Shown here: positions 9,929 to 30,519 of the stretch, piece after piece
How the letters are laid out: each line of letters begins with the position of its first letter
How positions within the stretch are numbered: the first letter of the stretch is position 1
Notes under the pieces: generated by a model
Database searches by the model: none
The model's input: the letters and a program-made list of their open reading frames with translations, nothing else
What the model was told of the DNA's origin: nothing
NCBI GenBank assembly: GCA_022767445.1
Contig: JALENJ010000036.1
Span: 1-32,962, forward strand
Direction of reading: 5' to 3'
Length of the DNA stretch: 32,962 nucleotides
Origin: Erysipelotrichaceae bacterium
GTDB lineage: Bacteria > Bacillota_I > Bacilli_A > Erysipelotrichales > Erysipelotrichaceae
Made by a program: the position numbers and the translations under genes

Positions 9929-10468
9929 ATGGAACTCATTACACAACTGATGGATCAAGCACAAATTGGAAGATCACTTGCGCGTATCGCACATGAAATC
10001 ATTGAAAAGGATAGTACATCCTCTCATGTATGTTTGGTTGGTATCAAACGTAGAGGAATCCCTCTAGCTCAAATACTCAGTGACAACATCAAGAAGTTCA
10101 CTGGGGTATCCCTTCCTGTTGGTGAGGTAGATATCTCCCTGTATCGAGATGATTTAACAGAGTTAAGCCAAACACCACAAACAACAGGAATTAACCTACC
10201 TGATAACATCCAAGACTACATTGTCATCCTGGTGGATGATGTCATCTATACAGGACGAACAATACGCGCTGCCATTGACGCCGTCTTCTCCAAAGGAAGA
10301 CCAAAGGCAATACAACTAGCTGTATTAATTGATCGTGGACATCGTGAGTTACCAATACGACCAGACTTTGTCGGTAAGAATGTACCGACATCACGTGATG
10401 AGATGATTGATGTTTCTATCCTTGGTATCGATTCTGAAACCAGTGTTAAATTGTATAAGCTTTCCTAA
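9929..10468 (+). CDS. pyrR: PyrR: pyrimidine operon regulator / uracil phosphoribosyltransferase
   Basis: The 179-residue protein matches PyrR, which binds pyr mRNA in response to UMP and also makes UMP from uracil and PRPP. The PRPP-binding loop VILVDDVIYTGRTIRAA is at about residues 93-110, and the N-terminal LVGIKRRGIPLAQ and C-terminal ELPIRPDFVGKNVPT blocks are typical. The gene stands alone between its own short-leader promoter and a terminator. No pyr biosynthesis gene or attenuator is in the window, so any regulation it exerts acts elsewhere. Confidence 0.93.
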   Translation: MELITQLMDQAQIGRSLARIAHEIIEKDSTSSHVCLVGIKRRGIPLAQILSDNIKKFTGVSLPVGEVDISLYRDDLTELSQTPQTTGINLPDNIQDYIVILVDDVIYTGRTIRAAIDAVFSKGRPKAIQLAVLIDRGHRELPIRPDFVGKNVPTSRDEMIDVSILGIDSETSVKLYKLS

Positions 10469-11584: not shown

Positions 11585-11614
11585 TTGAAACCCCACTATA
11601 TAGTGAGGTTTCAA
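11585..11614. repeat. 30-bp inverted repeat between the DUF349 and ECF genes
   Basis: Arms TTGAAACCCCACTAT and ATAGTGAGGTTTCAA pair at 14 of 15 positions with no loop; the one mismatch becomes a G-U pair in minus-strand RNA. It starts 2 bases past the DUF349 stop and lacks a U-run, so it is not a classic terminator. It could be an operator or an RNA-processing hairpin. Confidence 0.6.
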
Positions 11615-11616
11615 AG

Positions 11617-12960
11617 TTATGCGTTTAATTTCTTTTCGATATCTTCGATATCGCTCTTCAACTTCTCAATGAAAGCTTTCTTATCTTCTACTTGACGTTG
11701 AATACTGCGAATTTTTTCAAAGTCACTTGTTTCATATTCCATCTCTTGTAGAGAGTTGATTTCTTCTCTGATGACAGGAAGTTGAGATTTCTTGAATTCA
11801 TAAGTTTGCTTCAGACGAGCTTGACTCTCTTCACGTTTTGCATTCCAGAATACTTCCTTGGCAGAGTTGAATTCATCCCATAGGGCATCATTCTTACTGT
11901 TACCGGAATATCCAGCTGCACGCCATTCCTTATCAAGCTGCTTCATACGATTTGTATTTTCTTGACCATACTCTTTCTTTGAAGAAATAGTCTTAGCTTC
12001 TTCAATGAGTTCCTTCTTTATACGGATACTCTCTTTTTGTTTTTCATCACGCTCTGTAAAGAAAGCATTTCTTTGATCATAGAATCCTTGGCGTGCATCA
12101 TTAAACGCATTCCAAAGTTCATCATCCTTCTCACGACCAGCACTACCAACAGCCTTCCAAGCATCCATTAATGCATTCATCTTCTCAGAAGTTGCACGGA
12201 AATTATCAGTTTGCTTCGCTGTTTCTTTTACTTGGTTGATTAATTCTAACTTCTTAGCTTCATTTTCAGTATGTACCTGTGTGAGGTTATCAAAGTAATT
12301 ACGACGTTTGTCGTTGAACTGATTGCGATATCCCTTGAATTGTTTCCAGAGTTCATCATCCTCAACCCCAGCATTACCAAGCATATCCCATTCATCCTGA
12401 AGGTCTCTAAATGCCTGTTGTGTTTCTTTCCAACTAGAAGAATCTGCGATACTAGCTGCCTTTTCTACAAGCTTCTTCTTTTCTTGTGCATTTTGTTCCT
12501 GATGAGCACTTCTTTCCTTAAACTTTTCTAGTGTCTTGCCAAACCATACAGCGTATTCCGCATCTTTTGGTGTCTTCCAGTCTTCGATTGCGTCATATTG
12601 TTTGCGAATCTCTTCGAACTCTTCTACAGATACGACATTCTCAGCTTGACGGCATAACTCCTGTTTCTTACGAAGATCATTCTCCATATCCTCTAAAGCA
12701 GTTGCCTGGTGAGATGTACCATACTCCACCTCAGTTGAGCCAGCCTTCTGTAGAGAGAACATTCTGTATTCGCCATTTACTTCAATACCGAACCATCTAC
12801 CATGGCCATCGTTTACGCCTTCTTTTGGCAATACTGCATTTCCTTGGTCATCCTTAGCACCGTATAATACTTCTACTACTTTTCCATCAAAGGTTTTATG
12901 TGTCTTATAACTCACCTTTGCAAATTTCTCATCAAATCCTTCTAGTGTCTTCCAATCCAT
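11617..12960 (-). CDS. DUF349 domain coiled-coil protein
   Basis: The 447-residue, highly charged protein has at least three repeats of the DUF349 pattern. In each, a helix ends in W(K/R)..G, followed by DELW..F......F and an NYF or NAFF segment (for example DDELWKQFKGYRNQFNDKR and KDDELWNAFNDARQGFYDQ). The C-terminal 60 residues are coiled coil, and the N-terminal 70 residues form a separate small domain (GRWFGIEVNGEYRMFSL). No signal peptide is seen, so it is probably cytoplasmic. DUF349 has no firmly established function. The gene has its own TATAAT and a strong Shine-Dalgarno (AGGAGGTAAA). Confidence 0.82.
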   Translation of the reverse strand: MDWKTLEGFDEKFAKVSYKTHKTFDGKVVEVLYGAKDDQGNAVLPKEGVNDGHGRWFGIEVNGEYRMFSLQKAGSTEVEYGTSHQATALEDMENDLRKKQELCRQAENVVSVEEFEEIRKQYDAIEDWKTPKDAEYAVWFGKTLEKFKERSAHQEQNAQEKKKLVEKAASIADSSSWKETQQAFRDLQDEWDMLGNAGVEDDELWKQFKGYRNQFNDKRRNYFDNLTQVHTENEAKKLELINQVKETAKQTDNFRATSEKMNALMDAWKAVGSAGREKDDELWNAFNDARQGFYDQRNAFFTERDEKQKESIRIKKELIEEAKTISSKKEYGQENTNRMKQLDKEWRAAGYSGNSKNDALWDEFNSAKEVFWNAKREESQARLKQTYEFKKSQLPVIREEINSLQEMEYETSDFEKIRSIQRQVEDKKAFIEKLKSDIEDIEKKLNA

Positions 12961-13004
12961 GGATTTACCTCCTATGTTATCTAATCTTAAAATCTCTACT
13001 GACT

Positions 13005-13010
13005 ATTATA
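13005..13010 (-). promoter_or_regulatory. -10 element of the DUF349 gene promoter
   Basis: A minus-strand TATAAT preceded by TG lies 45 bases before the start, overlapping the 3' end region of the tetR gene. The -35 is weak. Confidence 0.45.
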
Positions 13011-13021
13011 CATGATAATCA

Positions 13022-13552
13022 CTACGTTTGATGTTCACGTTTTACATGTTCATAAACAATTTTTGCAAGATCCTGTACATCCTCATGCATACCAGTACGC
13101 ATCCACTCTGTATAAATATTAAATAGAGCACCTGAATAATAGTAAAGATGATACTTTCTCATCACATCCTCACCAGCTTGCAATACATACTGATCGATGT
13201 AGTAGTTAATCCCATCCTGTAAGATGGATGATAAGTTTGCTTGGTGTAGACATTCAATAAATCTTTGATAACTGCGGAAATACAAAAATCCAGCCAGTAT
13301 CATTTCATAAGAACGCTGTTGTAGACCCTTAGATTTTTGTACCTGAACAAATTCATCCACAATCATCTTCATATAATCACTGAAGATCTCTCGCTTATTA
13401 CTATAATTGCGATAATAGGTCATACGAGATACACCAGCCATCTGACAGATTTGTGTTACCGTAATCTCATCATATTCTTTTTGTTCCATCAAACGTATCA
13501 GTGCTTCACTGATACATTGACGATTAAATGCGTTTGTTTTTTCTTGTTGCAT
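13022..13552 (-). CDS. TetR/AcrR-family transcriptional regulator
   Basis: The 176-residue protein starts with a TetR DNA-binding domain (about residues 8-55: ISEALIRLM, DEITVTQICQMAGVSRMTYYRN, NKREIFSDYM). Its helical C-terminal domain resembles the DhaS-like group. Its ligand and targets are unknown. Neighbours are the DUF349 gene downstream (61-base gap) and a decayed gene upstream, neither an obvious target. The Shine-Dalgarno is TAGGAGACTT. A minus-strand TAAAAT about 20 bases before the start may be its -10. Confidence 0.85.
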   Translation of the reverse strand: MQQEKTNAFNRQCISEALIRLMEQKEYDEITVTQICQMAGVSRMTYYRNYSNKREIFSDYMKMIVDEFVQVQKSKGLQQRSYEMILAGFLYFRSYQRFIECLHQANLSSILQDGINYYIDQYVLQAGEDVMRKYHLYYYSGALFNIYTEWMRTGMHEDVQDLAKIVYEHVKREHQT

Positions 13553-13597
13553 AAGTCTCCTAGTAGCTATTTTACCACAACTACCTTTGATAGCTGA

Positions 13598-14060
13598 TTA
13601 TCCATTGTCATTTTCATATCCAGCTTCCAAAGTAAAGATACCTGTATTCACTTTGAAATTAACATGAAACTTGTATGCATGGTTTCCTTTTTGACTCTCT
13701 AGTTCCATCAACGATTTACCATGTGAGGTAATCGTTGCTTAATACAACTGTGTTTCCATTTGATTGACATCAAATATCGATACCATCGCATTCTCAATCA
13801 GATACGATATCCATCTTTCATCTCATCAGTGGACATTCCCCATCTAATCTGATGATAATCAACACCCTGCTTAAGTTGGATAATCATATCCATTAGATAA
13901 CATAGACGAAAAGCGTACATGGTTGCCATTTACAATCATCCGGAATGATCCATCTACCTCTATCATCCTTTTCAACCAATGGAATCACACCTGAAGCACA
14001 ATATTGGCTTACTACTCTACTTGTACAATTCCATTTTCTACTCGCTTCTTTCGTGTTCAT
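13598..14060 (-). pseudogene. Decayed helix-turn-helix gene
   Basis: A good start (ATG 14058-14060, Shine-Dalgarno TAGGAGAT, -10 TATAAT at 14083-14088) opens a MerR/excisionase-like HTH beginning MNTKEASRKWNCTSRVVSQY. After about 47 codons (GRWIIPDDCKWQP) the frame breaks. Coding continues in a second frame (QLKQGVDYHQIRWGMSTDEM), then a third (LIENAMVSIFDVNQMETQLY). It then meets an in-frame TAA, continues (ATITSHGKSLMELES) and stops at 13598. Two frameshifts plus an internal stop within about 150 codons mark it as broken. The intact N-terminal piece (63 codons) could still be translated. It fills the 600-base stretch between tetR and the PTS cassette. Confidence 0.65.
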
Positions 14061-14104
14061 AGTAGATCTCCTAATTAGCCACATTATACCATTTCATGCA
14101 TGGT

Positions 14105-14133
14105 AAAAGAAAAGATACCTCATAAGAAGTATC
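14105..14133 (-). terminator. Terminator after the SIS gene
   Basis: On the minus strand GATACTTC-TTAT-GAGGTATC (one G-U pair) is followed by TTTTCTTTT. It lies about 20 bases past the SIS stop codon. Confidence 0.8.
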
Positions 14134-14140
14134 CAATCTT
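14105..14140. repeat. 36-bp direct repeat, copy A (left flank of PTS cassette)
   Basis: This stretch is identical to 19110-19145 except for one base (C at 14134, T at 19139). It includes a minus-strand terminator. The two copies bracket the whole AAT-PTS operon and are 5005 bases apart. Confidence 0.85.
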
Positions 14141-14153
14141 AGTAAATCCAGTT

Positions 14154-14900
14154 TTAAAACTTATAGTGAATGACATCTTTATATTGTTCAAATAGTTGCT
14201 TGTTCTTTTCATCACCACCATCGACATTTGCACTATAGAATACTGGCGGCGTAGAAATCCCGATGTCTACCAAGCGGTTCACTGTTTCTGAGTAAATCGT
14301 ATTCAATAAGATTGATCCTACGACTGTTGAAGTTGGAGCACATTTTTGTGATGTATTCTTGATAGGTACACAGGCATCTCCAATTTCACCATGATTATCG
14401 AGAACTATATCGCAATACTCAAATAAGTTCTTACCATCCGGATGACGAGATGTAACTGATTTGGAATAAGTTAAATTAGTGATTCCAATGACTTTCATTC
14501 CAGCTTTCTTAGCTGATATCGCAATCTCTATTGTTACTGGGTTTCTACCAGATACCGAATGAACAATTAATACATCATTTTCTTTAAATGGATAGTTAGA
14601 AGCAACTAGTGTTCCATAGCCTAAACATCTCTCCATCTTACTAGTGAATGTAATTGGCTCTCTATCAACCATTGTCTCTTTTGCAAAGATTGGTGTAATT
14701 GGCATTAAACCACCAGCTCTATAAAATGACTCTTGTGATAATATGCCTGCATGACTTGCCCCAAAGATATAGATTGATCTTTTATTTGCGATTGTATCTG
14801 TCAGTAACTCAATTGCTTGTTCAATCGATTCATTATCCTTTTCTTCGATCATTTCTATCAGGTGCTTAATTTCATCAATATATCTATATGTCATACTCAT
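14154..14900 (-). CDS. SIS-domain phosphosugar-binding protein (UPF0309 family)
   Basis: The 248-residue protein has the sugar-isomerase (SIS) fold that binds phosphosugars. Visible family motifs are IYIFGASHAG, ESFYRAGGLMPITPI, VHSVSGRNPVTIEIA, TSRHPDGKNLFEYCD, the block APTSTVVGSI and the C-terminal VDGGDEKNKQLF. These match UPF0309 proteins, often called putative phosphosugar isomerases, with no proven substrate here. It is the last gene of the AAT-PTS operon, 39 bases behind IIC, so it probably acts on the imported phosphosugar. Confidence 0.82.
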   Translation of the reverse strand: MSMTYRYIDEIKHLIEMIEEKDNESIEQAIELLTDTIANKRSIYIFGASHAGILSQESFYRAGGLMPITPIFAKETMVDREPITFTSKMERCLGYGTLVASNYPFKENDVLIVHSVSGRNPVTIEIAISAKKAGMKVIGITNLTYSKSVTSRHPDGKNLFEYCDIVLDNHGEIGDACVPIKNTSQKCAPTSTVVGSILLNTIYSETVNRLVDIGISTPPVFYSANVDGGDEKNKQLFEQYKDVIHYKF

Positions 14901-14939
14901 ATACCTCTAATGTACAAATGAAAAGCAGATTCTTTCTCG

Positions 14940-16217
14940 TTATACAAACAATCTAGCAATAATACCTTCAATAATTCCCCACAAGGAGAAATCCTGACCG
15001 CCATAAACTAACATCCACGGTTGAATAGTATGGTTGAAGAAATATGCTCCTAGTCCAACTAGCAGAACCATTACAACACCATTTACAGCTGTACCAATTA
15101 TGCATCCACGTCTTCCGCCATATGCATTAGCTATAATTGCAGCACATCCATTTTCAAAGAAGCATGTAACCACTAAAGGAATCACAATTGTTGGGAAACG
15201 ACCTGCAGTAATAATGATAGTAATTGTCGATGTGATCATCGCTACGATAAATCCAATGATTAGTGAATTAGGACCAAATCCAAAGATGACTGGACAATCT
15301 AATGCAGGAATTGCTCCAGGAACAACCTTCTCAGCAATGCCTTTAAACGCAGGTACGATTTCTGCAATCAACATACGTACACCCTGTAGCATTACAGTCA
15401 TGCCAACACCAAAATAAATTGCATGAGTGAATAGATATGTGAAGAAACCAGTTGTACCACCAGCATATCCCCAAACTTCAGCAGGAACTAGACCTCCGCC
15501 TAAAAGAAGGAAATAGAGAATTATATAGACAAATGCAATTGTGATAGAACCAGTAATCGAAACTTCACGTAAAAATCCTAGTGGTTTTGGTACCTTAATA
15601 TCTTCCATGCTTTTTGATGGATCGCCAACTACTTTTGCAATACCTGCTGATATTAGCGAAAGAGTAGTTGTAGGGTGTCCAATTGTAAAATCATCCTTTC
15701 CAGTAACTTTTTTAACTAATGGATGCATTAAGTTTGGTGCTATTACCATATATAGCGCCGTGAAAATAGCAGCTAATAATATTAATTTACCACCAGTTAA
15801 ACCTGCATCAACACCGGCAGCTATAAATACAAATGGGAACCAATATAACATGTGACCTGTTAAGAATACTGATTTCCACTTAGTAAATCTCGCAACTAGT
15901 AGATTAATACCAAATGCAACAAGCATAACGATACCAATTTGTGTTCCGTATGTTGCTCCAATCTCAACTGTAGCTGGTGGTGTTGCTTGTGCAGGTAATA
16001 ATGCATTAAATGCTTCAGAAATACCACCAATCGAATTACTAATAATTAATCCCGTTCCGGCATTCAATACAAAGAAACCAATTGCTGTCATTAGAGTTCC
16101 GCGAATAATATCAGAAATAGATCTCTTTTGCAAAATCAATCCAATCATCGCTACCAATGCTAAGAAAATAGCTCCTTGTCCAAATATTTCATTAATCACA
16201 AAATTCAAGATACTCAT
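14940..16217 (-). CDS. PTS ascorbate-type (UlaA/SgaT) IIC permease
   Basis: The 425-residue membrane protein has about eleven hydrophobic segments. Its blocks LMTAIGFFVLNAGTGLII, FGINLLVARFTKWK and IAEIVPAFKGIAEKVVPGA are characteristic of the UlaA/SgaT family. It forms the sugar channel of a PTS of the ascorbate-galactitol superfamily. IIB lies 25 bases upstream and the SIS gene 39 bases downstream. The ascorbate pathway enzymes (UlaD, E, F, G) are absent, so ascorbate need not be the substrate. Confidence 0.9.
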   Translation of the reverse strand: MSILNFVINEIFGQGAIFLALVAMIGLILQKRSISDIIRGTLMTAIGFFVLNAGTGLIISNSIGGISEAFNALLPAQATPPATVEIGATYGTQIGIVMLVAFGINLLVARFTKWKSVFLTGHMLYWFPFVFIAAGVDAGLTGGKLILLAAIFTALYMVIAPNLMHPLVKKVTGKDDFTIGHPTTTLSLISAGIAKVVGDPSKSMEDIKVPKPLGFLREVSITGSITIAFVYIILYFLLLGGGLVPAEVWGYAGGTTGFFTYLFTHAIYFGVGMTVMLQGVRMLIAEIVPAFKGIAEKVVPGAIPALDCPVIFGFGPNSLIIGFIVAMITSTITIIITAGRFPTIVIPLVVTCFFENGCAAIIANAYGGRRGCIIGTAVNGVVMVLLVGLGAYFFNHTIQPWMLVYGGQDFSLWGIIEGIIARLFV

Positions 16218-16242
16218 AAACCTTCCCCCTTTCCTATTCTGT

Positions 16243-16533
16243 TTATGAATTCAATGAATTAAAATACGATGTAACGTGCGTCTCAATTTCAGAACTGTCC
16301 ATAAAATTATCAACAATGATAATTGGTACTTCAGCTCTGTCACTAATTCTTTCTGCTAAATCTCTAGAGATAAAAATTACATCACACGGGTTACTCAAAC
16401 AGGTCCCAACATCACCCGTAAATGTTTCGGCTTCCAGACCATTCTTCTTGAGTACATCATCAATCGCCATGCGTAGCATTAATGACGATCCGCACCCAAA
16501 GCCACATACGCACTGAATTTTTGGCACTGACAT
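16243..16533 (-). CDS. PTS ascorbate-type IIB component
   Basis: The 96-residue cytoplasmic protein carries the phosphorylated cysteine in IQCVCGFGCGSSLML, most likely Cys10. It passes phosphate from IIA to the incoming sugar at IIC. Length and fold match SgaB/UlaB. Its start overlaps the IIA stop by one base, which indicates translational coupling. A cysteine-rich loop (Cys8, Cys10, Cys14) is somewhat unusual. Confidence 0.88.
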   Translation of the reverse strand: MSVPKIQCVCGFGCGSSLMLRMAIDDVLKKNGLEAETFTGDVGTCLSNPCDVIFISRDLAERISDRAEVPIIIVDNFMDSSEIETHVTSYFNSLNS

Positions 16534-16985
16534 TAGATTTCTTCCTCCTTTCTGTCATTCAACAATAAATACATCTCATCAATTGTTTTACAGTTCTTCA
16601 TTTTTTCTATGATTCCTTTTTGCATTAACACTCTCGCAACTCTCTGCAAATATGCCATATGTCCTTCTTTATCCACACAGGATAAACACATGACAATTGA
16701 TACAGGATCATTTGGGCTTCCAAACGAGACAGGTTTTTTCAAAGTGATAATCGAAGTTGCAGTATTTATTACTTCAGGTGATGGGGCAGCATGCGCCATT
16801 GCAAAACCTTTTGTCAGTACAATATAAGGCCCCATTTCTAATACACTATTAATCATTTCATCAATATAAACTTTTGTTATATTACCAGTCTCTACAAGTA
16901 AACTTCCCGCAGCTTTAATTGCCTCTTTCCAATCATTCACCTCCATATCTAGTAAGATGTTTTCTCTTCTAATTAGTTCTTCCAT
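16533..16985 (-). CDS. PTS IIA component (mannitol/fructose-type fold, AAT system)
   Basis: The 150-residue cytoplasmic protein is an EIIA with the phosphorylatable histidine in GFAMAHAAPSPEV (His65). The block LKKPVSFGSPNDPVSIVMCLS is typical of IIA proteins paired with UlaA-type permeases. It receives phosphate from HPr and hands it to IIB. It follows the PRD regulator by 11 bases and overlaps IIB by one. Confidence 0.88.
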   Translation of the reverse strand: MEELIRRENILLDMEVNDWKEAIKAAGSLLVETGNITKVYIDEMINSVLEMGPYIVLTKGFAMAHAAPSPEVINTATSIITLKKPVSFGSPNDPVSIVMCLSCVDKEGHMAYLQRVARVLMQKGIIEKMKNCKTIDEMYLLLNDRKEEEI

Positions 16986-16996
16986 GCTTTAAACCT

Positions 16997-18937
16997 CTAT
17001 ACACTATGCAAATTAATTACTATTTCTTTTGTAATACCATCTGAAGCTAATATCCTACGATTTGATTCTTTAGAAAGAATATCCACTAGATCCAGCATCA
17101 ATGTTGTTTCTTTATCCTTGTTGCCAATAACAACTATATTTCTAACTATCTTTGCATTGTGAGCACCAAATACAATTGGCTTTTTCAATATAAGTAATGC
17201 CATGCAATTATCAATGACACCATCCTCGCTTCCAGCATGTACAAATGCCGTTTCAGGAATCAATACCATATACGCTCCAAGTTGATATACTGCATCAATC
17301 ATCTTATGGATATATCGTTCTTCTATCTTTTGATTCACCAAAAGTGGATTAGCCGCCAATTTTATTGCATGTTCCCACGTATCACATGATTCTATAATTT
17401 GAACACAATTATCATCCATTAAATTTCCAATTGTAATCTCATCTGGATCTCTAGTCGTTCTATACTTCCGCAAAAATTCATTACACATTTTTGCGTATGA
17501 CAGTTGAGATATGGCCGATCGGATTTTGTCTAAATCATCAACATTTAATAGTGGATTAACCATAATTCTTTGTTTTGTACTAAGATTTAATTCTGCTGTT
17601 GTAACAATTAAATCTATCTCATTAATTTTTTCGAATTTTGATAATTCTTCTTTAGAAATTGGGCCAAATAATTTGCAATCAGAAAAGTTTTGATCGAGTC
17701 GACTGTGTAATATTGTACTCGTAGTATTACCGTACGAACATACCACCAAGATATTAATCACCAATTTTATCTTTAAACTAGATTCATATGCACTTGCTAT
17801 ATACATAGCAATATATGCCATTTCATTCTCATCAAAATTTAAACCATATATTCTTTCACACTCTAATAGTTGAACTTTAGTATATTCATATATTAAAGGG
17901 ATCATGATTTTGATTTGCTCTAACAACTCATTTCCAATTGGAATCTTATTTTTAATACGATATATAGCAACACTCAGGTGAGAAGTTAGTCCTTTAATAA
18001 ACTTTTCTTTTTCATCATTTTTCAATGGATGTAATATCTCAAGTTTCTCCATTAGGTAATTAGCAATCGAAACTGACTCTTCACTTGTATCAAGTACATT
18101 GCTATTATTCTTAATCTTTGCTCCCATCAACAAACTAGTGATGTATATTTTTTCAATATAAGAAATAGGTAGTAAATCTAAGGTCTCATAATACGCTTTA
18201 AACATTGGATATGACTCAGTGATCATTAATTGATTATTTAGATCATTATCATCAAATGTTCTCCCTTTTGAAATTTGATAAAGTCCAAAACATATTTCAA
18301 TTTCTAACAGAGTTATCTCGAGAAAATGTATATTTAATCTTTTTTCAACATGACTGATAATTTGCTTTGCAATAGTTATGTTTGGCTCACAATAGCAAAA
18401 ATGTAGTCTATTAAGAATTTCCTGATTCAAATGTCTGCTAAATAACAAATTATTAAAAGCATTTCTAAAATCAAATTCGCTCCCTTTCAACAAGAGACCT
18501 TTACCTTTTTCCTTTACTATTTTTAGATTTAAGGAGTTAGCAATTTTTTCTGTCTCCTTAAAGTTGTTGATAACTGTTTGTCGACTAACTTTTAAATCAT
18601 CAGCAAGAGACTGATAAGTTCTCGAATGATATTCCAATAATTTAATAATGATCATCCAATTTCTTTCTTCTACAGATAATTCTTCAATTTCCCCTTGCAA
18701 TGTATAAATTTCATGTAATTTCTGCAAATCCTCTTTATGAATTCCATAACCCGTTTTACGTGAAAACATCATATGTATTCCATAACTATCAAAGTAGGAT
18801 TTTACCTTTTTCATATCATAAAGAATTGTTCTACTACTGACTTCAAAAATTTGTGACATACTTTGCACTGTCAGAGAATGATTATTTTCAAGAAGCATTC
18901 TGATAATCTCAGACTGCCTTTTATTTGTTAAAAACAT
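16997..18937 (-). CDS. PRD-containing PTS-controlled transcriptional activator (BglG/MtlR type)
   Basis: The 646-residue protein contains, in order, an HTH_11-type N-terminus (NKRQSEIIRMLLENNHSL), a second HTH (TYQSLADDLKVSRQTVINNF) and two PRD domains (about 190-390). A IIB-like domain with a cysteine (INILVVCSYGNTTS) and a C-terminal EIIA domain with His567 in FVHAGSEDG follow. PTS phosphorylation of these domains tells it whether substrate is present. It heads the operon it probably activates. Its DNA is strikingly AT-rich: the 60 bases from 18301 have 15 G/C, against 23 in the 60 bases from 26041 of the other PRD regulator. This suggests transfer. Confidence 0.87.
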   Translation of the reverse strand: MFLTNKRQSEIIRMLLENNHSLTVQSMSQIFEVSSRTILYDMKKVKSYFDSYGIHMMFSRKTGYGIHKEDLQKLHEIYTLQGEIEELSVEERNWMIIIKLLEYHSRTYQSLADDLKVSRQTVINNFKETEKIANSLNLKIVKEKGKGLLLKGSEFDFRNAFNNLLFSRHLNQEILNRLHFCYCEPNITIAKQIISHVEKRLNIHFLEITLLEIEICFGLYQISKGRTFDDNDLNNQLMITESYPMFKAYYETLDLLPISYIEKIYITSLLMGAKIKNNSNVLDTSEESVSIANYLMEKLEILHPLKNDEKEKFIKGLTSHLSVAIYRIKNKIPIGNELLEQIKIMIPLIYEYTKVQLLECERIYGLNFDENEMAYIAMYIASAYESSLKIKLVINILVVCSYGNTTSTILHSRLDQNFSDCKLFGPISKEELSKFEKINEIDLIVTTAELNLSTKQRIMVNPLLNVDDLDKIRSAISQLSYAKMCNEFLRKYRTTRDPDEITIGNLMDDNCVQIIESCDTWEHAIKLAANPLLVNQKIEERYIHKMIDAVYQLGAYMVLIPETAFVHAGSEDGVIDNCMALLILKKPIVFGAHNAKIVRNIVVIGNKDKETTLMLDLVDILSKESNRRILASDGITKEIVINLHSV

Positions 18938-19052
18938 AGATGGCTCCTAACTTTCCTAAATCATAATATTTCCAGTGTATCTCATCAATAACAATTTTTT
19001 TCAATTTTCCATGCAAGCTTTATTCTTATCATCTATATTTTGTTCTTTTTTC

Positions 19053-19079
19053 ATGCATGTTAAATGATTTAACATGCAT
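19053..19079. promoter_or_regulatory. 27-bp perfect palindrome upstream of the PRD regulator
   Basis: Arms ATGCATGTTAAA and TTTAACATGCAT are perfectly complementary around TGA. It is 116 bases upstream of the PRD regulator start, in the 210-base region 18938-19147, and has no T-run on either side, so an activator or repressor site is more likely than a terminator. Confidence 0.5.
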
Positions 19080-19109
19080 TCATATTATTAACTAATAGTT
19101 CTCGCAGGC

Positions 19110-19138
19110 AAAAGAAAAGATACCTCATAAGAAGTATC
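19110..19138 (-). terminator. Terminator of the AEC/dehydrogenase operon
   Basis: On the minus strand the stem GATACTTC/GAGGTATC with loop TTAT is followed by TTTTCTTTT, 9 bases past the dehydrogenase stop. Confidence 0.82.
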
Positions 19139-19145
19139 TAATCTT
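19110..19145. repeat. 36-bp direct repeat, copy B (right flank of PTS cassette)
   Basis: It matches 14105-14140 at 35 of 36 bases and starts two bases past the D-2-hydroxyacid dehydrogenase stop codon. This is probably the original terminator location. Confidence 0.85.
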
Positions 19146-19147
19146 TG

Positions 19148-20149
19148 TTATTTAACGATGTTCTTTGTAGTACCTGTTGTGAGTACTTCATTGAAGTTAT
19201 CCATGGAGTATTCAATCATGTTAGCTAGTGCCTCATCTGTATTGGAACCGATATGAGGTGTAACAATGACTTTTGGATACATCTGTACTAACTCACGTAC
19301 ACTTTCATCTGGAATTTCTTCCGCACTGTTAAACTTCTTGAAGAAGAACGCTGTTTCATTTGCGAATACATCTGTTCCATATCCACCGAGTTTACCAGAT
19401 TTTAGAGCGTCGATGATTGCTTGATTATCCTGCAATTCACCACGTGCTGTATTTAAGAAGATTGCGCCGTCCTTCATCTTACTGAAGAATTCTGCGTTTG
19501 CCATCTTATCATTCTTGCCTGGAAAATATGGTACATGCAAGCTTACGATATCGCATTGTGCTAGTAGTTCATCTTGAGATACATAGTCAAGAACTTCTCT
19601 ACATGCATCATTTTCGTAGACATCGTATCCTAGTACCTTCGCACCTAATCCTTTGTAGAGTTTTGCTTCTGTAAATCCAATTCTACCTGTACCGATAATA
19701 CCGACTGTGCAGTTGCGGATTTCCTTTGAGAAGTATGTAGGAGATACAATAAAATCTCCCTTGGCTGTTGCGCTTGTTGCGGCAGCTGTATGACGTAGTA
19801 ACATCAATCCCAATGTGAGTGATAACTCAGCGATTGCGTTTGGTGAATATCCTGGTACACGAGCAACCATCAAACCTAACTCTTCAGCAGCTTTAAGGTC
19901 GATGTGGTTATAACCAACGGAACGTGTAAATACATACTTGATTCCGTATTCTTTAATCTTTTCAAGATTCTGACGATCACCTACGCAATTACCACGCATT
20001 AATACTGCATCTGCGCCTTCACATTCTGTGATGTTCTCATGTGTTGTTAGTCCTTCTACAAGCTTTAAATCATATCCATACTTGTTATACTTTTTGAAGA
20101 ATTCGACTTCGTTTGGACGAACACCATAACATACAACTTTAAATGACAT
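19148..20149 (-). CDS. D-2-hydroxyacid dehydrogenase, probable D-lactate dehydrogenase
   Basis: The 333-residue cytoplasmic NAD enzyme reduces a 2-keto acid such as pyruvate to the D-hydroxy acid. The nucleotide-binding GIIGTGRIG, the arginine in FLNTARGEL, the glutamate region GYGTDVFANE and the catalytic histidine in VTPHIGSNTDEA form the family triad. The N-terminal VGYNHIDLKAAEELG block is also typical. It follows an AEC transporter by 42 bases, as expected for lactate formation coupled to export. Branched-chain 2-hydroxyacids remain possible substrates. Confidence 0.85.
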   Translation of the reverse strand: MSFKVVCYGVRPNEVEFFKKYNKYGYDLKLVEGLTTHENITECEGADAVLMRGNCVGDRQNLEKIKEYGIKYVFTRSVGYNHIDLKAAEELGLMVARVPGYSPNAIAELSLTLGLMLLRHTAAATSATAKGDFIVSPTYFSKEIRNCTVGIIGTGRIGFTEAKLYKGLGAKVLGYDVYENDACREVLDYVSQDELLAQCDIVSLHVPYFPGKNDKMANAEFFSKMKDGAIFLNTARGELQDNQAIIDALKSGKLGGYGTDVFANETAFFFKKFNSAEEIPDESVRELVQMYPKVIVTPHIGSNTDEALANMIEYSMDNFNEVLTTGTTKNIVK

Positions 20150-20191
20150 ACTTTAATTCCTTCTTCCTTTTATTACTTATATTCTAATCTA

Positions 20192-21259
20192 TTAAAAGAT
20201 ACCTAAATGTCCAATCATCTCTACCACAACAATCCATACAGGGGCCATAATAACAGCCACAAGTGTTGCGATTAATGAAGTATTAGATGCTAATAGCGCA
20301 CCCTTGTCAAAACGGATTGCATATGAAGCAGCTACCGTAGCTGGAGGTGTTGCCATCATGATTACTGTTGTTCCAAGGGAAACTAAGTTAACAGGTAGAA
20401 TATGTGTAACTGTTAATATAACCAACACAACAATATTGATTGCAGGAACAATTAACAACTTAACGATAGTATAGTAGATCGCTCTCTTGTCAGTCATCGC
20501 ATCCTTGAAGCTTACGGAACCTAGTGTAGAACCGATTGCCAACCACGCTAGTGGAGAAGCTAGACCTGCAAGATATGTAAGAATCTTCGTAATCTGTGGC
20601 GAAGTTACATCCAAACGCATAAAGGAAACGGTTTGATTTACAACCTCACCTGAAGCATTTGTGACCGCAACTGTTACCTGTGGTAGATAACCTTGTGCTA
20701 ACCATAGGAATAAACCTAAGAATGTTGCGATAACAATTGGATTTAAGAACATGGAACGAAGATTCTTCGTTGTCATCTTCAATCCACTCATCTTGATATA
20801 TCCATAGGAGTATAAGAAGATACGATATCCAATATTGAAGATTGATGCATATAACGCACCCTCTGCACCATAGATTGCACTGACAATTGGAATACCAAAA
20901 AATGTTGTTGATCCAAAGATACTCAATACACGTAAAGTATCTTTTTCATCACCTTCATACTTGTGATATAGAGGTATTGTTACAAATATCAACAATACAT
21001 AAATGAGAATACCCCAGATTAATACATTCAATCCCTGTGTGAATGTCTCTGGTTTGATTGGTGCCATAAACGAATTAAACGCTAATGCCGCAACCGAAAC
21101 TGATAGTACTACTTTTGTTAAAACCTTGGCTGTTTGATCATCGAATATTTTCTTACGACGTAAGAAGTATCCTAACAGGATAATCACTACGCTTGAGATA
21201 ATAGCCGAATTGATTCTTTCATTTGATAATGTCGTTGCAAATATATCAAAGAAATTCAT
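20192..21259 (-). CDS. AEC-family transporter (malate/lactate-type permease)
   Basis: The membrane protein has about ten hydrophobic segments with the family patterns LGYFLRRKKIFDD at the N-terminus, FFGIPIVSAIYG and MMATPPATVAASYAIRF near the C-terminus. AEC (auxin efflux carrier) proteins in bacteria carry organic acids. Its gene partner, a D-2-hydroxyacid dehydrogenase, suggests lactate or a related acid. I set the start at ATG 21257-21259 (355 residues) because AAAGGGGGA lies 8 bases before it. The longer frame from 21403 would run through the promoter and add 48 unlikely residues. Confidence 0.82.
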   Translation of the reverse strand: MNFFDIFATTLSNERINSAIISSVVIILLGYFLRRKKIFDDQTAKVLTKVVLSVSVAALAFNSFMAPIKPETFTQGLNVLIWGILIYVLLIFVTIPLYHKYEGDEKDTLRVLSIFGSTTFFGIPIVSAIYGAEGALYASIFNIGYRIFLYSYGYIKMSGLKMTTKNLRSMFLNPIVIATFLGLFLWLAQGYLPQVTVAVTNASGEVVNQTVSFMRLDVTSPQITKILTYLAGLASPLAWLAIGSTLGSVSFKDAMTDKRAIYYTIVKLLIVPAINIVVLVILTVTHILPVNLVSLGTTVIMMATPPATVAASYAIRFDKGALLASNTSLIATLVAVIMAPVWIVVVEMIGHLGIF

Positions 21260-21308
21260 CGTTAAATCCCCCTTCTTTCTGATAAATATTTTCATATTTA
21301 CGCATGTA

Positions 21309-21336
21309 GTATAGCAGAGGTATTTTTTGATTTCAA
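21309..21336 (-). promoter_or_regulatory. Promoter of the AEC/dehydrogenase operon
   Basis: On the minus strand TTGAAA (21331-21336) and TATACT (21309-21314) are exactly 17 bases apart, with TG one base before the -10. The -10 lies about 50 bases before the start. Confidence 0.8.
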
Positions 21337-21372
21337 TCATTGATAAAATAGTGTAAATACTAACAAATATAT

Positions 21373-21387
21373 TGTTAACGCTTTCAT
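21373..21387 (-). promoter_or_regulatory. CcpA cre site upstream of the AEC promoter
   Basis: ATGAAAGCGTTAACA on the minus strand fits the cre consensus WTGNAANCGNWNNCW at every fixed position. It lies about 36 bases upstream of the -35, a place where CcpA activates rather than represses in known cases. Confidence 0.65.
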
Positions 21388-21408
21388 ACATATAAACATG
21401 CATGCATA

Positions 21409-21445
21409 TTAAAACCTCTCCAATATTACACTAGAGAGGTTTTAA
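21409..21445 (-). terminator. Terminator after the RDD gene
   Basis: A perfect 12-bp stem TTAAAACCTCTC/GAGAGGTTTTAA with a 13-base loop starts one base after the RDD stop region. The run of T lies inside the 3' arm. Confidence 0.75.
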
Positions 21446-21446
21446 C

Positions 21447-22061
21447 TTAGAACACTTTTCCGTTAGAAACAAATTCATCTTTCATGTATGTCTTTGCGAT
21501 ACGATCATGAAAGAAACGATACTGTCCTTTATCCAGTAATGCAAATATCAAGGATGCGATCGCTGTGATTGCACTGATTGCATAGATGATACGACTAATA
21601 CTTCCAGCTTGGAAGATACCAAAGAAAACACCATTGAGGATAACCGCAAATGCATCATAGAAGATACCTTCACATACAAGCGATCCTACATAGTAGCGTA
21701 ACAGGAAATCTTTGAAGGTTGCTGGTGTGGCATCTTGTCTTACAACCTTTACCTGCATGACTTTTTGCATCATAGTGGAACCACCAGTGATCTTTGCAGG
21801 TAAAAACACAAAGTAGAAACCATGCACTACCAATACACTGATCAACAATATAATAATCTGACCGGCTGGTATGTTTTCAAACCCCTTTAGTACTTGGATA
21901 TCTCCCTTGTTTAACATTCCGTATACAATACCTGTTACAAACAAAGATAGTCGATTGGTCACAATGTAATCAACGATGAATGCGAGTGCTCTTCTGCCGA
22001 GATAAGAATTTTGATTTTTCGTCACTGCTTGGGTGGATGTTACTCTCTTTTGTTTAGCCAT
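21447..22061 (-). CDS. RDD-family membrane protein
   Basis: The 204-residue protein has the RDD hallmark near the first helix (GRRALAFIVDYIV, R...D pattern) and KITGGSTMMQKVMQVKVVR between helices. Three or four membrane segments are present. RDD proteins are widespread small membrane proteins with mostly unknown roles; some move ions or compatible solutes. It is the last gene of the YitT operon, 3 bases after the PTS IIA gene. Confidence 0.82.
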   Translation of the reverse strand: MAKQKRVTSTQAVTKNQNSYLGRRALAFIVDYIVTNRLSLFVTGIVYGMLNKGDIQVLKGFENIPAGQIIILLISVLVVHGFYFVFLPAKITGGSTMMQKVMQVKVVRQDATPATFKDFLLRYYVGSLVCEGIFYDAFAVILNGVFFGIFQAGSISRIIYAISAITAIASLIFALLDKGQYRFFHDRIAKTYMKDEFVSNGKVF

Positions 22062-22064
22062 GCG

Positions 22065-22367
22065 TTATCCTTCCAAGTATGCGATTTCTTCTTCAGCAAT
22101 GAGTTTCAGTGTTTCCACACTCATCAGCTGGTCTTCTGCATGTACCAACAATAGATTGACTTGTACACTTTCCTCATTGGCTTCTTGTGTAATTAGTTGT
22201 GCATGTGCTTCGTGTGCTTTGTTGAAAAACTCATCACCATCCGCAAAATATTTCTTCGCATCTTCTAATTTTTTTCGCTTTGCGTTACGATAGCTTTGTA
22301 AAAATGAATTTCTAGCTTCTCCCACAGATGCGATAATCTTAAAGCATACTAATTCTAATCCTTCCAT
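22065..22367 (-). CDS. PTS lactose/cellobiose-family IIA component
   Basis: The 100-residue helical protein matches the lactose/chitobiose IIA family, a trimer of three-helix units. The phosphorylated histidine is His76 in VNLLLVHAEDQLM. It takes phosphate from HPr and gives it to a lactose-family IIB. No IIB or IIC is in this operon; the only matching ones in the window are at 31875 and 30520, in a different operon, so the three probably form one transporter. It is one base from cutC and 3 bases from RDD. Confidence 0.9.
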   Translation of the reverse strand: MEGLELVCFKIIASVGEARNSFLQSYRNAKRKKLEDAKKYFADGDEFFNKAHEAHAQLITQEANEESVQVNLLLVHAEDQLMSVETLKLIAEEEIAYLEG

Positions 22368-22368
22368 A

Positions 22369-23112
22369 TTACTTACCTCTCAATTTTTCTGCGACTTGTT
22401 TTACTAAATCTAAGCTGACTGCTTCATAGTCATCTTTGTTGTGGAATGCAAAGGATACATTTCCTGTTGTCGTTGTTGGATCAATTTCCCACATCTTACA
22501 ACTGCTATGAAATTGATGCATGCATGTATGTTCACGCAATTCATTGATGTTATTTGCGTTAACACCACTTCCTGCCAGCAGCTGAATCTGTTGTCCATAC
22601 TTAGCTTGTAGTGTTTTTAGCATGTCTTTTCCTTCATACGCTGTTGGTTGTAATCCACTTGTTAGGATACGATCAACACCACACTGTATCAATTGTTGAA
22701 TTGCGGTATTAGGATCAGATACACAATCAAACGCTCTATGGAATACTGCATCCCCTTGGTAGCGATGTACAAGTTCTACCATCTTCTTTGTGCTTTCTAC
22801 ATCGATTGTGGCATCTTTATTTAAGAATCCAAATGAGATGCCATCTGCACCATGTTTTAACAGTTCTTCTGCATCTTTGAACATCACTTCTTTTTCTATC
22901 TCATTGTAACAAAATCCTGCAGCTCTTGGACGAACCATGCAGACAATTTTAATTGTAGTTTTTTCTTTTACCATCTTGAGTGTACTGATGGTTGGAGTTA
23001 ATCCACCAATGGAGAGTGCACTGTTTAACTCTGCTCTATCTGCGCCTCCAAGTTGTGCGTTGATACAATCTTGTACGCCACCTGTACACACTTCAAATAC
23101 ATAGTCTTTCAT
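22369..23112 (-). CDS. cutC: CutC family TIM-barrel protein
   Basis: The 247-residue protein has all the CutC signatures: EVCTGGVQDCINAQLGGADRAELN, VCMVRPRAAGF, DGISFGFL, VFHRAFD and RILTSG. CutC was named for copper tolerance in E. coli, but its biochemical role is doubtful. Its place here between a glycosylasparaginase (ATGA overlap) and a PTS IIA argues for a part in amino-sugar or glycopeptide breakdown. The position is seen; the role is inference. Confidence 0.9.
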   Translation of the reverse strand: MKDYVFEVCTGGVQDCINAQLGGADRAELNSALSIGGLTPTISTLKMVKEKTTIKIVCMVRPRAAGFCYNEIEKEVMFKDAEELLKHGADGISFGFLNKDATIDVESTKKMVELVHRYQGDAVFHRAFDCVSDPNTAIQQLIQCGVDRILTSGLQPTAYEGKDMLKTLQAKYGQQIQLLAGSGVNANNINELREHTCMHQFHSSCKMWEIDPTTTTGNVSFAFHNKDDYEAVSLDLVKQVAEKLRGK

Positions 23113-24062
23113 TCTTCTATCGGTACTATCCTTTCTTTCATATAGTTATCCATCCACTCTTGGCTTGCGGGATAGATTTCTGTTTGATTTCCAACTGGAT
23201 TTGCTAGGTATACAATTGGTTCTTCTCCTTGGCGATAGACGACAAATGAGAAATTCTTGATATTGGTAGCACAACCAAAGTTACCATCTTTATCGATTGC
23301 GACCACACTTAAATCGCCGGCAAATCCTCTTGATTTCTTGAGCTTCGCATCTAATTCATTGACTGTCTTTTGGCAAGCTTCTTGTGGGGATAATCCCTCT
23401 TTCATCTTACGTACAATCTCATAAGAGATACATCCCTTCATCAAGTCCTCACCAAGTCCTGTAGCAGTCGCTCCACCGACTTCAGAGTCCGCATAGAAAC
23501 CTCCACCAACAATTGGGGAATCTCCGATACGTCCAGCCTTCTTCATGAATAGTCCACTAGTGGATGTTCCAGCAACGATCTTTCCTTGGCTATCTAGTGC
23601 TACCTCACCAACCGTATCATGACCATCATATGGTTTTAGCTCTTCTTCTTTGAGAAGTTTGATACGCTTGCGATAGTGAATTTTCGCTCTATCCGTCAAC
23701 ATGGTCTTTCTTTCAAATCCTTTTTTACTTGCGTACTTCTCTGCACCTTCTGCCACAAGTACGCAATTGACGGTATCCTTGGATAAATCCTTTGCGATGG
23801 AGATTGGATTGGCAAAGTCCTTAATACCTGCTACAGCTCCCATTGCCATGGTACTGCCATCCATATATCCTGCATCAAGCTCTACAACCATCTCTTCATT
23901 TGGCAAACCGCCATATCCTACGGATTTGTAGTATGGGAAATCCTCCACACATCGAATCGCATGTTCAATCGCTTCGCCACTGCTCTTTCCTTCTTGTAAT
24001 AATTTTCCTGCTTCACTGACACCTTCCAGTGCCATGCGCCATGTCGCAATCATCGCCCACAT
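23109..24062 (-). CDS. N4-(beta-N-acetylglucosaminyl)-L-asparaginase (Ntn hydrolase)
   Basis: The 317-residue enzyme belongs to the family that cuts the bond between GlcNAc and asparagine in degraded N-glycoproteins, giving aspartate and the amino sugar. The N-terminus MWAMIATWRMALEG is typical. Self-cleavage before Thr150 in DGHDTVGEVALD would create the catalytic N-terminal threonine, and TSTSGLFMKKAGRIGDSPI and GATATGLGED form the active site. A cytoplasmic location is likely, as there is no signal peptide. It lies 10 bases after yitT and overlaps cutC by 4. A plain beta-aspartyl peptidase is possible. Confidence 0.85.
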   Translation of the reverse strand: MWAMIATWRMALEGVSEAGKLLQEGKSSGEAIEHAIRCVEDFPYYKSVGYGGLPNEEMVVELDAGYMDGSTMAMGAVAGIKDFANPISIAKDLSKDTVNCVLVAEGAEKYASKKGFERKTMLTDRAKIHYRKRIKLLKEEELKPYDGHDTVGEVALDSQGKIVAGTSTSGLFMKKAGRIGDSPIVGGGFYADSEVGGATATGLGEDLMKGCISYEIVRKMKEGLSPQEACQKTVNELDAKLKKSRGFAGDLSVVAIDKDGNFGCATNIKNFSFVVYRQGEEPIVYLANPVGNQTEIYPASQEWMDNYMKERIVPIEE

Positions 24063-24072
24063 AAGCTACCTC

Positions 24073-24954
24073 CTAGTCAATTGGCTTACGGTAGAACCCA
24101 CCATAGAAATCATCCGTACGATATACATTGATAATTGCATGGGGATCTACCGATAATATTAATTGTGCAATCTCCTTTACTTCTAAAGTCGATACAACGG
24201 TATTTAACATAAAGTTCTGTTGATGAGAATATCCACCATAGCTTTGCCAAACAGATATACCATGGCGATACTTCTGCGTATATTTCTTAACAATCTCCTC
24301 TGGTTTTGTACTGGTAATTTGAATTGTACTGCGATCATACCGATGATACAAACTATCAATTACCTTGGTCGATACGAACTGCATAATGATTGAGTAACAT
24401 GCCATCTTCCAACTAGACACGAAACCAAACACACATAACAAGATACAGTTGTATACAAAGACATAAAACCAAATACTTTTTCCAGTTTTATTCGATACAT
24501 ACAAAGCGATAAAATCAGTCCCACCAGTACTTGCATTGGCATATAAGGCACATACAATACCAAATCCATATACCGCACCACCGATGATAATATTCAACAT
24601 CATGTCATTAAATAATATTTTGAACCGAAATATAGATAAGAATATTGACACACAAACAAATTGCAAAGATGATAATACTGTAAACTTAAACGAAATCGAT
24701 TTACCACAGAGGATCGCTACTGGTAAATTTAACAAGACAATCATCAATGAAATCGAGATATTGATATTGTTTAAAGCACCAATATGATTGATCAATATCG
24801 CCAGACCAGTAAATCCACTGGATAAAAGACCTGCTGGTTTTAAGAGTACTTGTAATGCATAAGTTTGTATCAAAGCAGATAAAACAACAAGACAAAGACT
24901 GATTATAAAACGTACCCATTGTTTTTCTTGATAGCTTAACAGTCTTTCTTTCAT
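24073..24954 (-). CDS. YitT-family membrane protein
   Basis: The 293-residue protein has five or six N-terminal membrane segments with the YitT patterns LKPAGLLSSGFTGLA and STGGTDFIALY. A soluble C-terminal DUF2179 domain follows (VVSTLEVKEIAQLILSVDPHA, NVYRTDDFYGGFYRKPID). Function is not established; transport is often suggested. It is the first gene of the operon with the glycosylasparaginase, divergent from the PRD regulator across 95 bases. Confidence 0.87.
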   Translation of the reverse strand: MKERLLSYQEKQWVRFIISLCLVVLSALIQTYALQVLLKPAGLLSSGFTGLAILINHIGALNNINISISLMIVLLNLPVAILCGKSISFKFTVLSSLQFVCVSIFLSIFRFKILFNDMMLNIIIGGAVYGFGIVCALYANASTGGTDFIALYVSNKTGKSIWFYVFVYNCILLCVFGFVSSWKMACYSIIMQFVSTKVIDSLYHRYDRSTIQITSTKPEEIVKKYTQKYRHGISVWQSYGGYSHQQNFMLNTVVSTLEVKEIAQLILSVDPHAIINVYRTDDFYGGFYRKPID

Positions 24955-25016
24955 GTATACCTGCCTTCTATTCTAAGTTTATATTACTCAATTCTTGTAT
25001 GAATTAACACGCATTG

Positions 25017-25036
25017 TTTTCCTACTATTAGGAAAA
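25017..25036. promoter_or_regulatory. Palindromic operator in the yitT/regulator divergent region
   Basis: TTTTCCTACTATTAGGAAAA has perfect 8-bp arms around CTAT. It lies just before the regulator's Shine-Dalgarno and close to the yitT promoter. A similar 20-bp site is at 32282-32301, upstream of the PTS IIB operon. Confidence 0.55.
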
Positions 25037-25049
25037 AAGGGGATATCAT

Positions 25050-26954
25050 ATGAACAAACGCCAAGAGAAAATGATTCGTATTCTACACGAAGAAAATAAA
25101 TGGTTCACTGCCAATGAACTGGCAAAGCTTTTATCCGTTTCCAATCGTACAATACGTTCGGATATCGACACCATCAATAAGACGACCACTCATAAACTCA
25201 TTCAATCAAATCTGAGAAACGGATACGCTATCATTGAGGAAAATTACAAACAATTCCGAGTAGAATATCAACATACACTCAGCACCTCATTAGATCGTAA
25301 TCTATTTATCTTAAAGACTTTACTTCTATCGCGAGATTCTGTTTTCATTCCTACTCTTTTAGGCCGACTATGCATATCTGAATCCACATTGGATACCCAT
25401 CTAAAAGAGATACGAAAACAGCTAACACGCTACCAAGACATCAAGCTGAAAAAAGCAGCCAACTATCTCATCTTACTTGGCCCAGAAAATGAAATACGTA
25501 AGCTATATAAACATCTTCTCATTGATGAAACCAACCAGAACTTCTTAAACATCAATGAGCTAGCAAACCTATATCAAAACTTCGACTTACTCAAATGCAA
25601 ACAAGAACTAGAAGCACTGCTCGAACAACAGCATTACGATATTAACGCCAATGCACTACCTTCAATTTTATTGCATATCAGTATCTCCATCGATAGAATC
25701 CTGAGTGGCAAGTATATTGAATCTATCTACTCCAGCAGTAAACTACACGATGCGGTTGAGTATGTCATTGCCAAACAGTTCTATGAACGCATCGCCAAAC
25801 TCTACCAAGCACAAATCGTAGAAAGCGAAGTCATCATCCTTGCATTACTGTTGATGGGCAACAGTAATACCAAAGTCAACGAAACACAGATTGCCAACTA
25901 CATGCCAGATGGCTTGTTATGTAGTGATATAGTCAGTGAACTGATTGCCTTTATCTATGGACATCACGGCATAGACTTCTCCAAGGACGAAGACTTTAGA
26001 CTAGGGATTACACTTCACTTACAATCCTTAATCGAACGCAGTATCTCCCAAGCAAACACCACCAACTTATACCTACAAGAAATCAAACGAAAATTCCCAT
26101 TGATCTTTGAGGTAGGTGTCAGTGCAGCTTCCTTCTTATCCAAACGACTACACATCGAAATCAGTGAAGATGAGATTGGATTTATTACATTACATCTCGG
26201 TATGGCATATGAACATACTTACCACTCACAAAAGATTCGTACTGTGTGGATATACCCACTCGGAGAAAACGCCTTCTTTCATCAACGCAGAAAGATTGAG
26301 ACCATCTTCTATGAACATATTGAGATTATCAACGTCTACGCATACTTCCAGGAAGAGTTGATATTACAGGATCAACCAGATTTAATCGTATGTTCCATGC
26401 CATTACGGCATAAGTTATCCATTCCAACCGTCGAAATTTCTCTTCTATGTTCAAAAGATGATGAAGCCAAACTATTTTCAACCATCCATGAAATTGAAAA
26501 GAAGCGTATGCAAAAGACATTCCATACAAACCTGAATGGATTAATCACAGAGAAACATTTTTATATCCATCAAAACTTTGATACACCGCAAGAGATTATC
26601 TCGTTTATGTCTCTTAAATTAAAAGAGGATGGTATCGTAACAGATTCATTCTATGACTCCGTCATGCAAAGAGAAGCACTCTCACCAACCTCTTTTAACT
26701 TTAATTTTGCGACACCACACCCAATTGATTCAACATGCATGCAATCAGCGATTGCGATTATGTTGTTGGATAAACCTGTATTATGGGGCAGTTATGAAGT
26801 ACAACTTGTTTTCTTACTGGCGATTGATCAACCTGAAACCATCAATATGAAACCATTCTTTGATTGGGTAGCTTCATTAAGTGAAGACTATGAAAAACTA
26901 TCCCACCTAATCGCCAGTAACTCCTTTGAAGAATTTACTTCATACTTAGTCTAG
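25050..26954 (+). CDS. PRD-containing PTS-controlled activator (LicR-like)
   Basis: The 634-residue protein contains an N-terminal HTH_11 (NKWFTANELAKLLSVSNRTI), a middle HTH-like region, two PRD domains (about 190-400), a degenerate IIB-like domain (RTVWIYPLGENAFFHQR, no cysteine at the usual place) and a C-terminal EIIA domain with His557 in FATPHPIDS. Such regulators activate a sugar operon when the cognate PTS is drained of phosphate. It lies between two operons holding the pieces of one lactose-family PTS, so both are the likely targets. It ends in a CTAG shared with the convergent gene. Confidence 0.88.
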   Translation: MNKRQEKMIRILHEENKWFTANELAKLLSVSNRTIRSDIDTINKTTTHKLIQSNLRNGYAIIEENYKQFRVEYQHTLSTSLDRNLFILKTLLLSRDSVFIPTLLGRLCISESTLDTHLKEIRKQLTRYQDIKLKKAANYLILLGPENEIRKLYKHLLIDETNQNFLNINELANLYQNFDLLKCKQELEALLEQQHYDINANALPSILLHISISIDRILSGKYIESIYSSSKLHDAVEYVIAKQFYERIAKLYQAQIVESEVIILALLLMGNSNTKVNETQIANYMPDGLLCSDIVSELIAFIYGHHGIDFSKDEDFRLGITLHLQSLIERSISQANTTNLYLQEIKRKFPLIFEVGVSAASFLSKRLHIEISEDEIGFITLHLGMAYEHTYHSQKIRTVWIYPLGENAFFHQRRKIETIFYEHIEIINVYAYFQEELILQDQPDLIVCSMPLRHKLSIPTVEISLLCSKDDEAKLFSTIHEIEKKRMQKTFHTNLNGLITEKHFYIHQNFDTPQEIISFMSLKLKEDGIVTDSFYDSVMQREALSPTSFNFNFATPHPIDSTCMQSAIAIMLLDKPVLWGSYEVQLVFLLAIDQPETINMKPFFDWVASLSEDYEKLSHLIASNSFEEFTSYLV

Positions 26955-27484: not shown

Positions 27485-27490
27485 AGAGAA

Positions 27491-27646
27491 TCAACTCTGT
27501 CGATCTTGTGTATTGACTGCCTCATCAATCACTCTTGTACCATCTGATTGTGTACGTGTAATGTATCGATAGAATAGTGCATATAACAAGATATAGAAGA
27601 TACCCAAACCTACAAACGAACCGATAAATATGCATCTCGCACTCAT
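27491..27646 (-). CDS. Small single-pass membrane protein (51 aa)
   Basis: This short frame begins MSARCIFIGSFVGLGIFYIL with one membrane helix (about residues 5-26) and a polar tail ending NTQDRQS. It has a strong Shine-Dalgarno (AGGAGG, 5 bases before ATG 27644-27646). It is in frame with the 177-residue ORF that follows after TGA TTC TCT, so it is either a separate small protein or the N-terminus of a broken gene. Family unknown. Confidence 0.55.
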   Translation of the reverse strand: MSARCIFIGSFVGLGIFYILLYALFYRYITRTQSDGTRVIDEAVNTQDRQS

Positions 27647-27667
27647 ATATCCTCCTACTCAAAACTT

Positions 27668-27704
27668 AAAAGGGATATTGTCATCCAATGACTATATCCC
27701 TTTT
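27668..27704. terminator. Strong bidirectional terminator after mupG
   Basis: An outer stem AAAAGGGATAT/ATATCCCTTTT, one mismatch and an inner stem GTCAT/ATGAC with loop CCA form a 16-bp hairpin. It terminates the PTS IIB-to-mupG operon. Confidence 0.88.
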
Positions 27705-27723
27705 ATATCTCACTACATCACTA

Positions 27724-30518: not shown

Positions 30519-30519
30519 A

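Follow-up and report, generated by a model that had tools for sequence, protein, structure and literature searches.

A five-gene PTS operon of an Erysipelotrichaceae bacterium lies between two almost identical copies of what looks like a single transcription terminator. How did the operon come to be bracketed in this way? We addressed this question in the window, the whole stretch of 32,962 nucleotides analysed here (contig JALENJ010000036.1), and by comparison with other genomes of the family. The answer we reach is that the operon was very probably inserted, in this lineage, at the terminator of a D-2-hydroxyacid dehydrogenase gene, and that about 42 bp of the target were duplicated around it.

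The terminator pair and the operon between its copies

The preliminary description of this locus had noted a 36-mer at 14105-14140 that recurs at 19110-19145 with 35/36 positions identical. Those coordinates are exact, and the likeness extends further, to a 42-nt direct repeat in which 39/42 positions agree and whose start-to-start spacing is 5005 bases (Table 1). By chance alone, the expectation for a 35/36 pair in a 33-kb window is about 2e-10. All the genes involved lie on the minus strand. Read on that strand, each copy consists of a 9-bp stem with a 4-nt loop and, behind it, a U-rich tail, and the predicted fold energy of both is about -14 to -16 kcal/mol. Both look like genuine stem-loop terminators. 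The first base of one copy, T_dh, is also the final base of the stop codon of the dehydrogenase gene. The other, T_sis, starts 10 bases past the stop codon of the SIS gene and is the sole apparent terminator of the operon.

Table 1. Features at and around the terminator repeat (positions in the window; G075 is the sister species discussed below)
Feature	Position	Strand	Basis or remark
Remnant of native downstream HTH-like gene	13598..14065	-	Broken; the G075 ortholog (155 aa) is intact
Terminator copy T_sis, left bracket	14102..14143	-	Alignable on its downstream side to the empty site of G075
SIS-domain sugar isomerase	14154..14900	-	Above NCBIfam cut-off, PRK02947.1
PTS EIIC, EIIC-GAT, ascorbate-type	14940..16217	-	Above NCBIfam cut-off, PRK09410.1-1
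PTS EIIB, ascorbate-like	16243..16533	-	PTS_IIB; Pfam/NCBIfam
PTS EIIA	16533..16985	-	PTS_EIIA_2
BglG/PRD-type transcription regulator with EIIA domain	16997..18937	-	Pfam HTH_11, PRD, PTS_EIIA_2
Near-perfect 27-nt palindrome, just inside the insert	19053..19079	.	Sequence symmetry
Terminator copy T_dh, right bracket	19107..19148	-	39/42 identical to T_sis; directly after dehydrogenase stop
D-2-hydroxyacid dehydrogenase (D-LDH/VanH-like), native upstream gene	19148..20149	-	Pfam/NCBIfam; 88% ortholog in G075

The pair is unique. With up to three mismatches allowed, the 36-mer occurs in the whole 1.91-Mb genome at these two places only, and its 30-nt core is absent from all others of the 272 family genomes searched. 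A dispersed terminator repeat family, which the preliminary description had named as another way to read the pair, is ruled out by these counts. We also compared, pair by pair, 63 predicted terminators in a 304-kb sample of stretches from the same genome. T_dh and T_sis score 31 against each other, and the best other independent pair scores 13. The sole pair above 31 lies inside a 1.65-kb duplicated stretch, and the two members of a pair scoring 18 are a single palindromic terminator, counted once on each strand.

Repeats of other kinds are present in this genome. About 40 nt, identical and palindromic in character, are shared by window positions 298-338, L118:2903-2943 and L134:862-901 of the same genome, apparently as a dispersed intergenic repeat family. 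Near the end of the window, two 27-nt segments (32395-32421 and 32824-32850) form an inverted repeat pair at 93%, with ~400 bases between them.

What lies between the terminators is, as had been proposed, one operon: a complete cluster of five genes on a single strand in the order BglG-type regulator, EIIA, EIIB, EIIC and SIS. No ascorbate-degradation genes lie beside the transporter. The palindrome just inside the insert is possibly the operator of the BglG-type regulator, judging by its symmetry and position; no palindromes with arms of at least 8 bp were found upstream of the homologous operons compared. An 11-nt part of this palindrome together with its flank, CATGCATGAAA, recurs right after T_sis in the native flank.

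The segment had also been described as low in GC, with codon usage as a further check. GC is indeed lower in the insert (33.4% vs 38.1% in the remainder of the window), but codon usage overall is unremarkable and not clearly foreign. Most of the drop is due to the regulator (29.7% GC); this and the ordinary codon usage make composition alone a weak sign of foreign origin. The GC3 of EIIC and the regulator is about 3 SD low.

An empty site in a sister species

The dehydrogenase gene is patchy in the genus (close orthologs in 2 of 70 genomes). Its only other carrier there is G075, a sister species with a complete genome on a single contig. Outside the genus, the dehydrogenase has a match of about 70% identity in Gemella.

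Most of the window is collinear with G075 at 74-78% DNA identity, falling to 68% over a decayed HTH gene. The sister genome lacks the PTS segment and matches window positions 19161-31194 on one side of it and 11585-14118 on the other side. At the junction, the dehydrogenase stop codon is followed by one stem-loop with a U-tail, a promoter and, ~80 bases on, the start of a 155-aa HTH-like gene. The two genomes differ, then, by presence and absence at a syntenic site. A junction with a single terminator and no segment had been anticipated between strains; we found it in a sister species. Nor is the operon conserved at this locus in all relatives: the site is empty in G075, and the distribution of the operon is patchy.

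The two ends of the insert can be matched to the empty site. T_dh is contiguous with the dehydrogenase gene in the window, and the T_sis side aligns with G075 from the terminator tail through the promoter and start of the HTH gene. The target, single in the empty genome, is directly duplicated around the insert, the G075 terminator having diverged in sequence. Of each window copy, only the 3' stem arm and the tail align to the terminator of G075. Because the window copies are far closer to each other than to that of G075, the duplication is younger than the split between the two species; barring gene conversion, duplication and insertion are placed in the window's lineage, after that split. 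No flanking repeats comparable to the terminator pair were found at other indels between window and G075. At the level of sequence, one genome from each of two different species thus demonstrates a filled site with two copies, an empty site with one, and the relative age of the duplication.

The native gene downstream of the site has not survived. Set against its G075 ortholog, the HTH-like gene is a pseudogene, spread over three reading frames and broken by one stop. Its promoter region outlasted the insertion. The interval between the HTH and TetR genes is variable in more than one way, since G075 carries there a GNAT acetyltransferase gene, a small kinase-like gene and a cation-type ATPase gene (L044:12092-15954, opposite window 13577-13598) that the window does not have; no flanking repeats were found at this extra segment. 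Elsewhere, a 177-aa ORF of the window (26951-27484, minus strand; no Pfam match) is missing from the collinear stretch of G075.

Distribution of the operon and its other loci

Highly similar versions of the operon's EIIC are present in 5 of the 70 genus genomes and in 29 of 244 genomes from the order. Nine other loci, spread over several genera, have the complete set of five genes, and the regulators there reach only about 22-40% identity. In a tree of EIIC the window groups with G050. G007 is placed differently, and with strong support: it belongs to the window's genus but groups with a member of a second genus, with a third one alongside. Patchy presence within the genus, occurrence in other genera and an EIIC tree incongruent with the genera together indicate that the operon moves horizontally. 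A search for a donor with the regulator, covering the entire family plus 395 genomes of the class, returned nothing above 42%. Carriage by a plasmid, phage or virus was considered and rejected: EIIC matches on plasmids and phages were all below 60% identity, and viral contigs held none.

The preliminary description had raised the wider idea that terminators serve as integration points for metabolic cassettes. As a general rule this is not borne out. None of the operon's other complete loci examined has a terminator bracket, and the 304-kb sample of the window's own genome holds no second spaced terminator pair comparable to T_dh and T_sis. Alone among the other complete loci, that of G007 has a close flanking direct repeat, of 120 nt at 77%, on both sides of the operon (L045:4877-4996 and 10205-10324). 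This repeat is the 3' end of a neighbouring thioredoxin-like lipoprotein gene and not a terminator; the neighbour has no close ortholog in the genus. The layout suggests that the G007 operon is possibly a second, older insertion with target duplication.

Routes of insertion

We propose that, after the split from G075, the horizontally moving operon entered at the intrinsic terminator behind the dehydrogenase gene, and that about 42 bp spanning this terminator were duplicated as it did so. Insertion with duplication of the terminator, the central claim of the preliminary description, is strongly supported by the single-terminator site of G075, the uniqueness of the 36-mer and the patchiness of the operon. 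The second terminator copy would derive from the host's own terminator through target duplication in a recombination or break-repair event; the absence of the terminator sequence elsewhere in the family argues against a foreign donor for it. On the most economical view, recombination or repair at the terminator may have captured a DNA fragment bearing the operon and copied ~42 bp of target, and probably no element-coded enzyme took part. Indeed, neither the insert nor the window proteins scanned include a transposase or integrase. Judged by transposase, terminal inverted repeats (best match 6 bp) and flanking IS, the insert is neither a transposon nor a composite transposon. A duplication of 42 bp is also much longer than ordinary transposon target duplications.

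From this anatomy, the operon would have come without a terminator of its own. It now appears to end at the copied host terminator, since only 10 bases of insert follow the SIS stop codon, and the dehydrogenase gene retains the other copy. With a terminator on both units, read-through into either neighbour should not occur. As far as geometry goes, recombination between the repeats could remove the operon cleanly, but no strain with such a deletion was seen.

Insertions with long target duplication are known from Helicobacter pylori (Nobusato et al. 2000, as cited in PMC1643837, PMC3874152 and PMC3031569). In the passages that cite them, they often involve restriction-modification genes (PMC1643837, PMC3874152, PMC3031569), and the duplications are of the order of 100 bp (PMC3874152). 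As far as those passages describe it, the likeness is close: a unit without mobility genes has on either side a direct copy of a target of which the empty relative has only one. The Helicobacter examples given there mostly carry restriction-modification genes and differ between strains, whereas here a sugar PTS operon differs between species; the target here is a transcription terminator, unlike in those cases. Association with restriction-modification genes, absent from this cargo, is frequent in the class and does not define it. At 42 nt (39/42), the duplication is longer than those of ordinary transposons, in a range that reaches up to the order of 100 bp. We file the insertion with this class, which is descriptive and implies no shared enzyme.

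Two other kinds of element invite comparison. The minimal mobile elements of Neisseria are likewise small cassettes without mobility genes that vary between relatives at a fixed spot amid conserved genes; unlike the present case, they are exchanged through homology of the flanking genes and do not depend on a duplicated bracket. Integrase-type elements also have direct repeats (attL and attR) at both ends beside the 3' end of a gene. Here, however, the element consists of the regulator, three PTS genes and the SIS gene, with no integrase and no other element genes.

The same bracket could arise by other routes. A more specific one, which overlaps with the capture we favour, is single-crossover (Campbell-type) integration, in which a circle bearing the operon and this terminator recombines by homology at the chromosomal terminator. 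Its exact expected product is the order seen here (dehydrogenase, terminator, operon, terminator), a length of 42 bp comes close to the minimum that homologous recombination needs, and the G007 operon, flanked by a repeated 3' end of its neighbour gene, has a similar layout. But replicon genes are absent, and the terminator is in no other family genome, so that the circle would need a source in the same species and the first insertion would merely be moved elsewhere. We regard this route as a real but minor possibility. It is improbable that an integrase acted on the terminator as an att site, the recombinase working in trans or having since been lost and the repeats being attL and attR. Repeat length, the inverted-repeat core and the position at a gene 3' end do fit att sites generally, yet neither the insert nor the scanned window proteins next to it include a recombinase, and the operon's other loci have no terminator repeats.

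Three further readings deny an insertion after the split. The operon and both terminators could be ancestral and G075 could have lost the operon by recombination between the repeats, a deletion that leaves exactly one terminator, as in G075. The window copies, however, are 35/36 alike and each is unlike that of G075 over half its length, which would require gene conversion, and the EIIC of the operon is missing from 65 of the 70 genus genomes at the cut-off used; we consider this very unlikely. The assembly is fragmented (74 contigs, with a contamination estimate of 2.3%), and an operon from another strain or a contaminant might have been joined at a short shared repeat. Such a misassembly is extremely unlikely, given that the two copies differ in sequence and that both outer flanks are collinear with G075. 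As for two unrelated look-alike terminators, or members of a dispersed family, a stem with a U-tail is a design common to terminators, but here the similarity spans 42 nt, beyond stem and tail, genome and family hold two copies only, and other independent pairs reach at most 13 against 31. The chance of this is practically nil.

A broader view of capture at the terminator would be that hairpin terminators are preferred break or template-switch points at which operons are caught, and that selection enriches such insertions as the duplicated terminator insulates both units. We found no literature tying terminators to duplicated brackets, and we hold this generalization to be quite improbable.

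The locus provides a clean pair of filled and empty sites for gene gain without a visible mobile-element enzyme, in which the duplicated unit is a complete terminator. As a mode of gene gain it is already known and, going by the passages cited above, poorly understood; metabolic cargo and a terminator as target set this case apart from the Helicobacter restriction-modification examples described there. The short direct repeats would permit precise loss of the operon, an event that could be sought in populations. The arrangement also points to a route by which an operon may arrive without a terminator of its own and still be properly ended.
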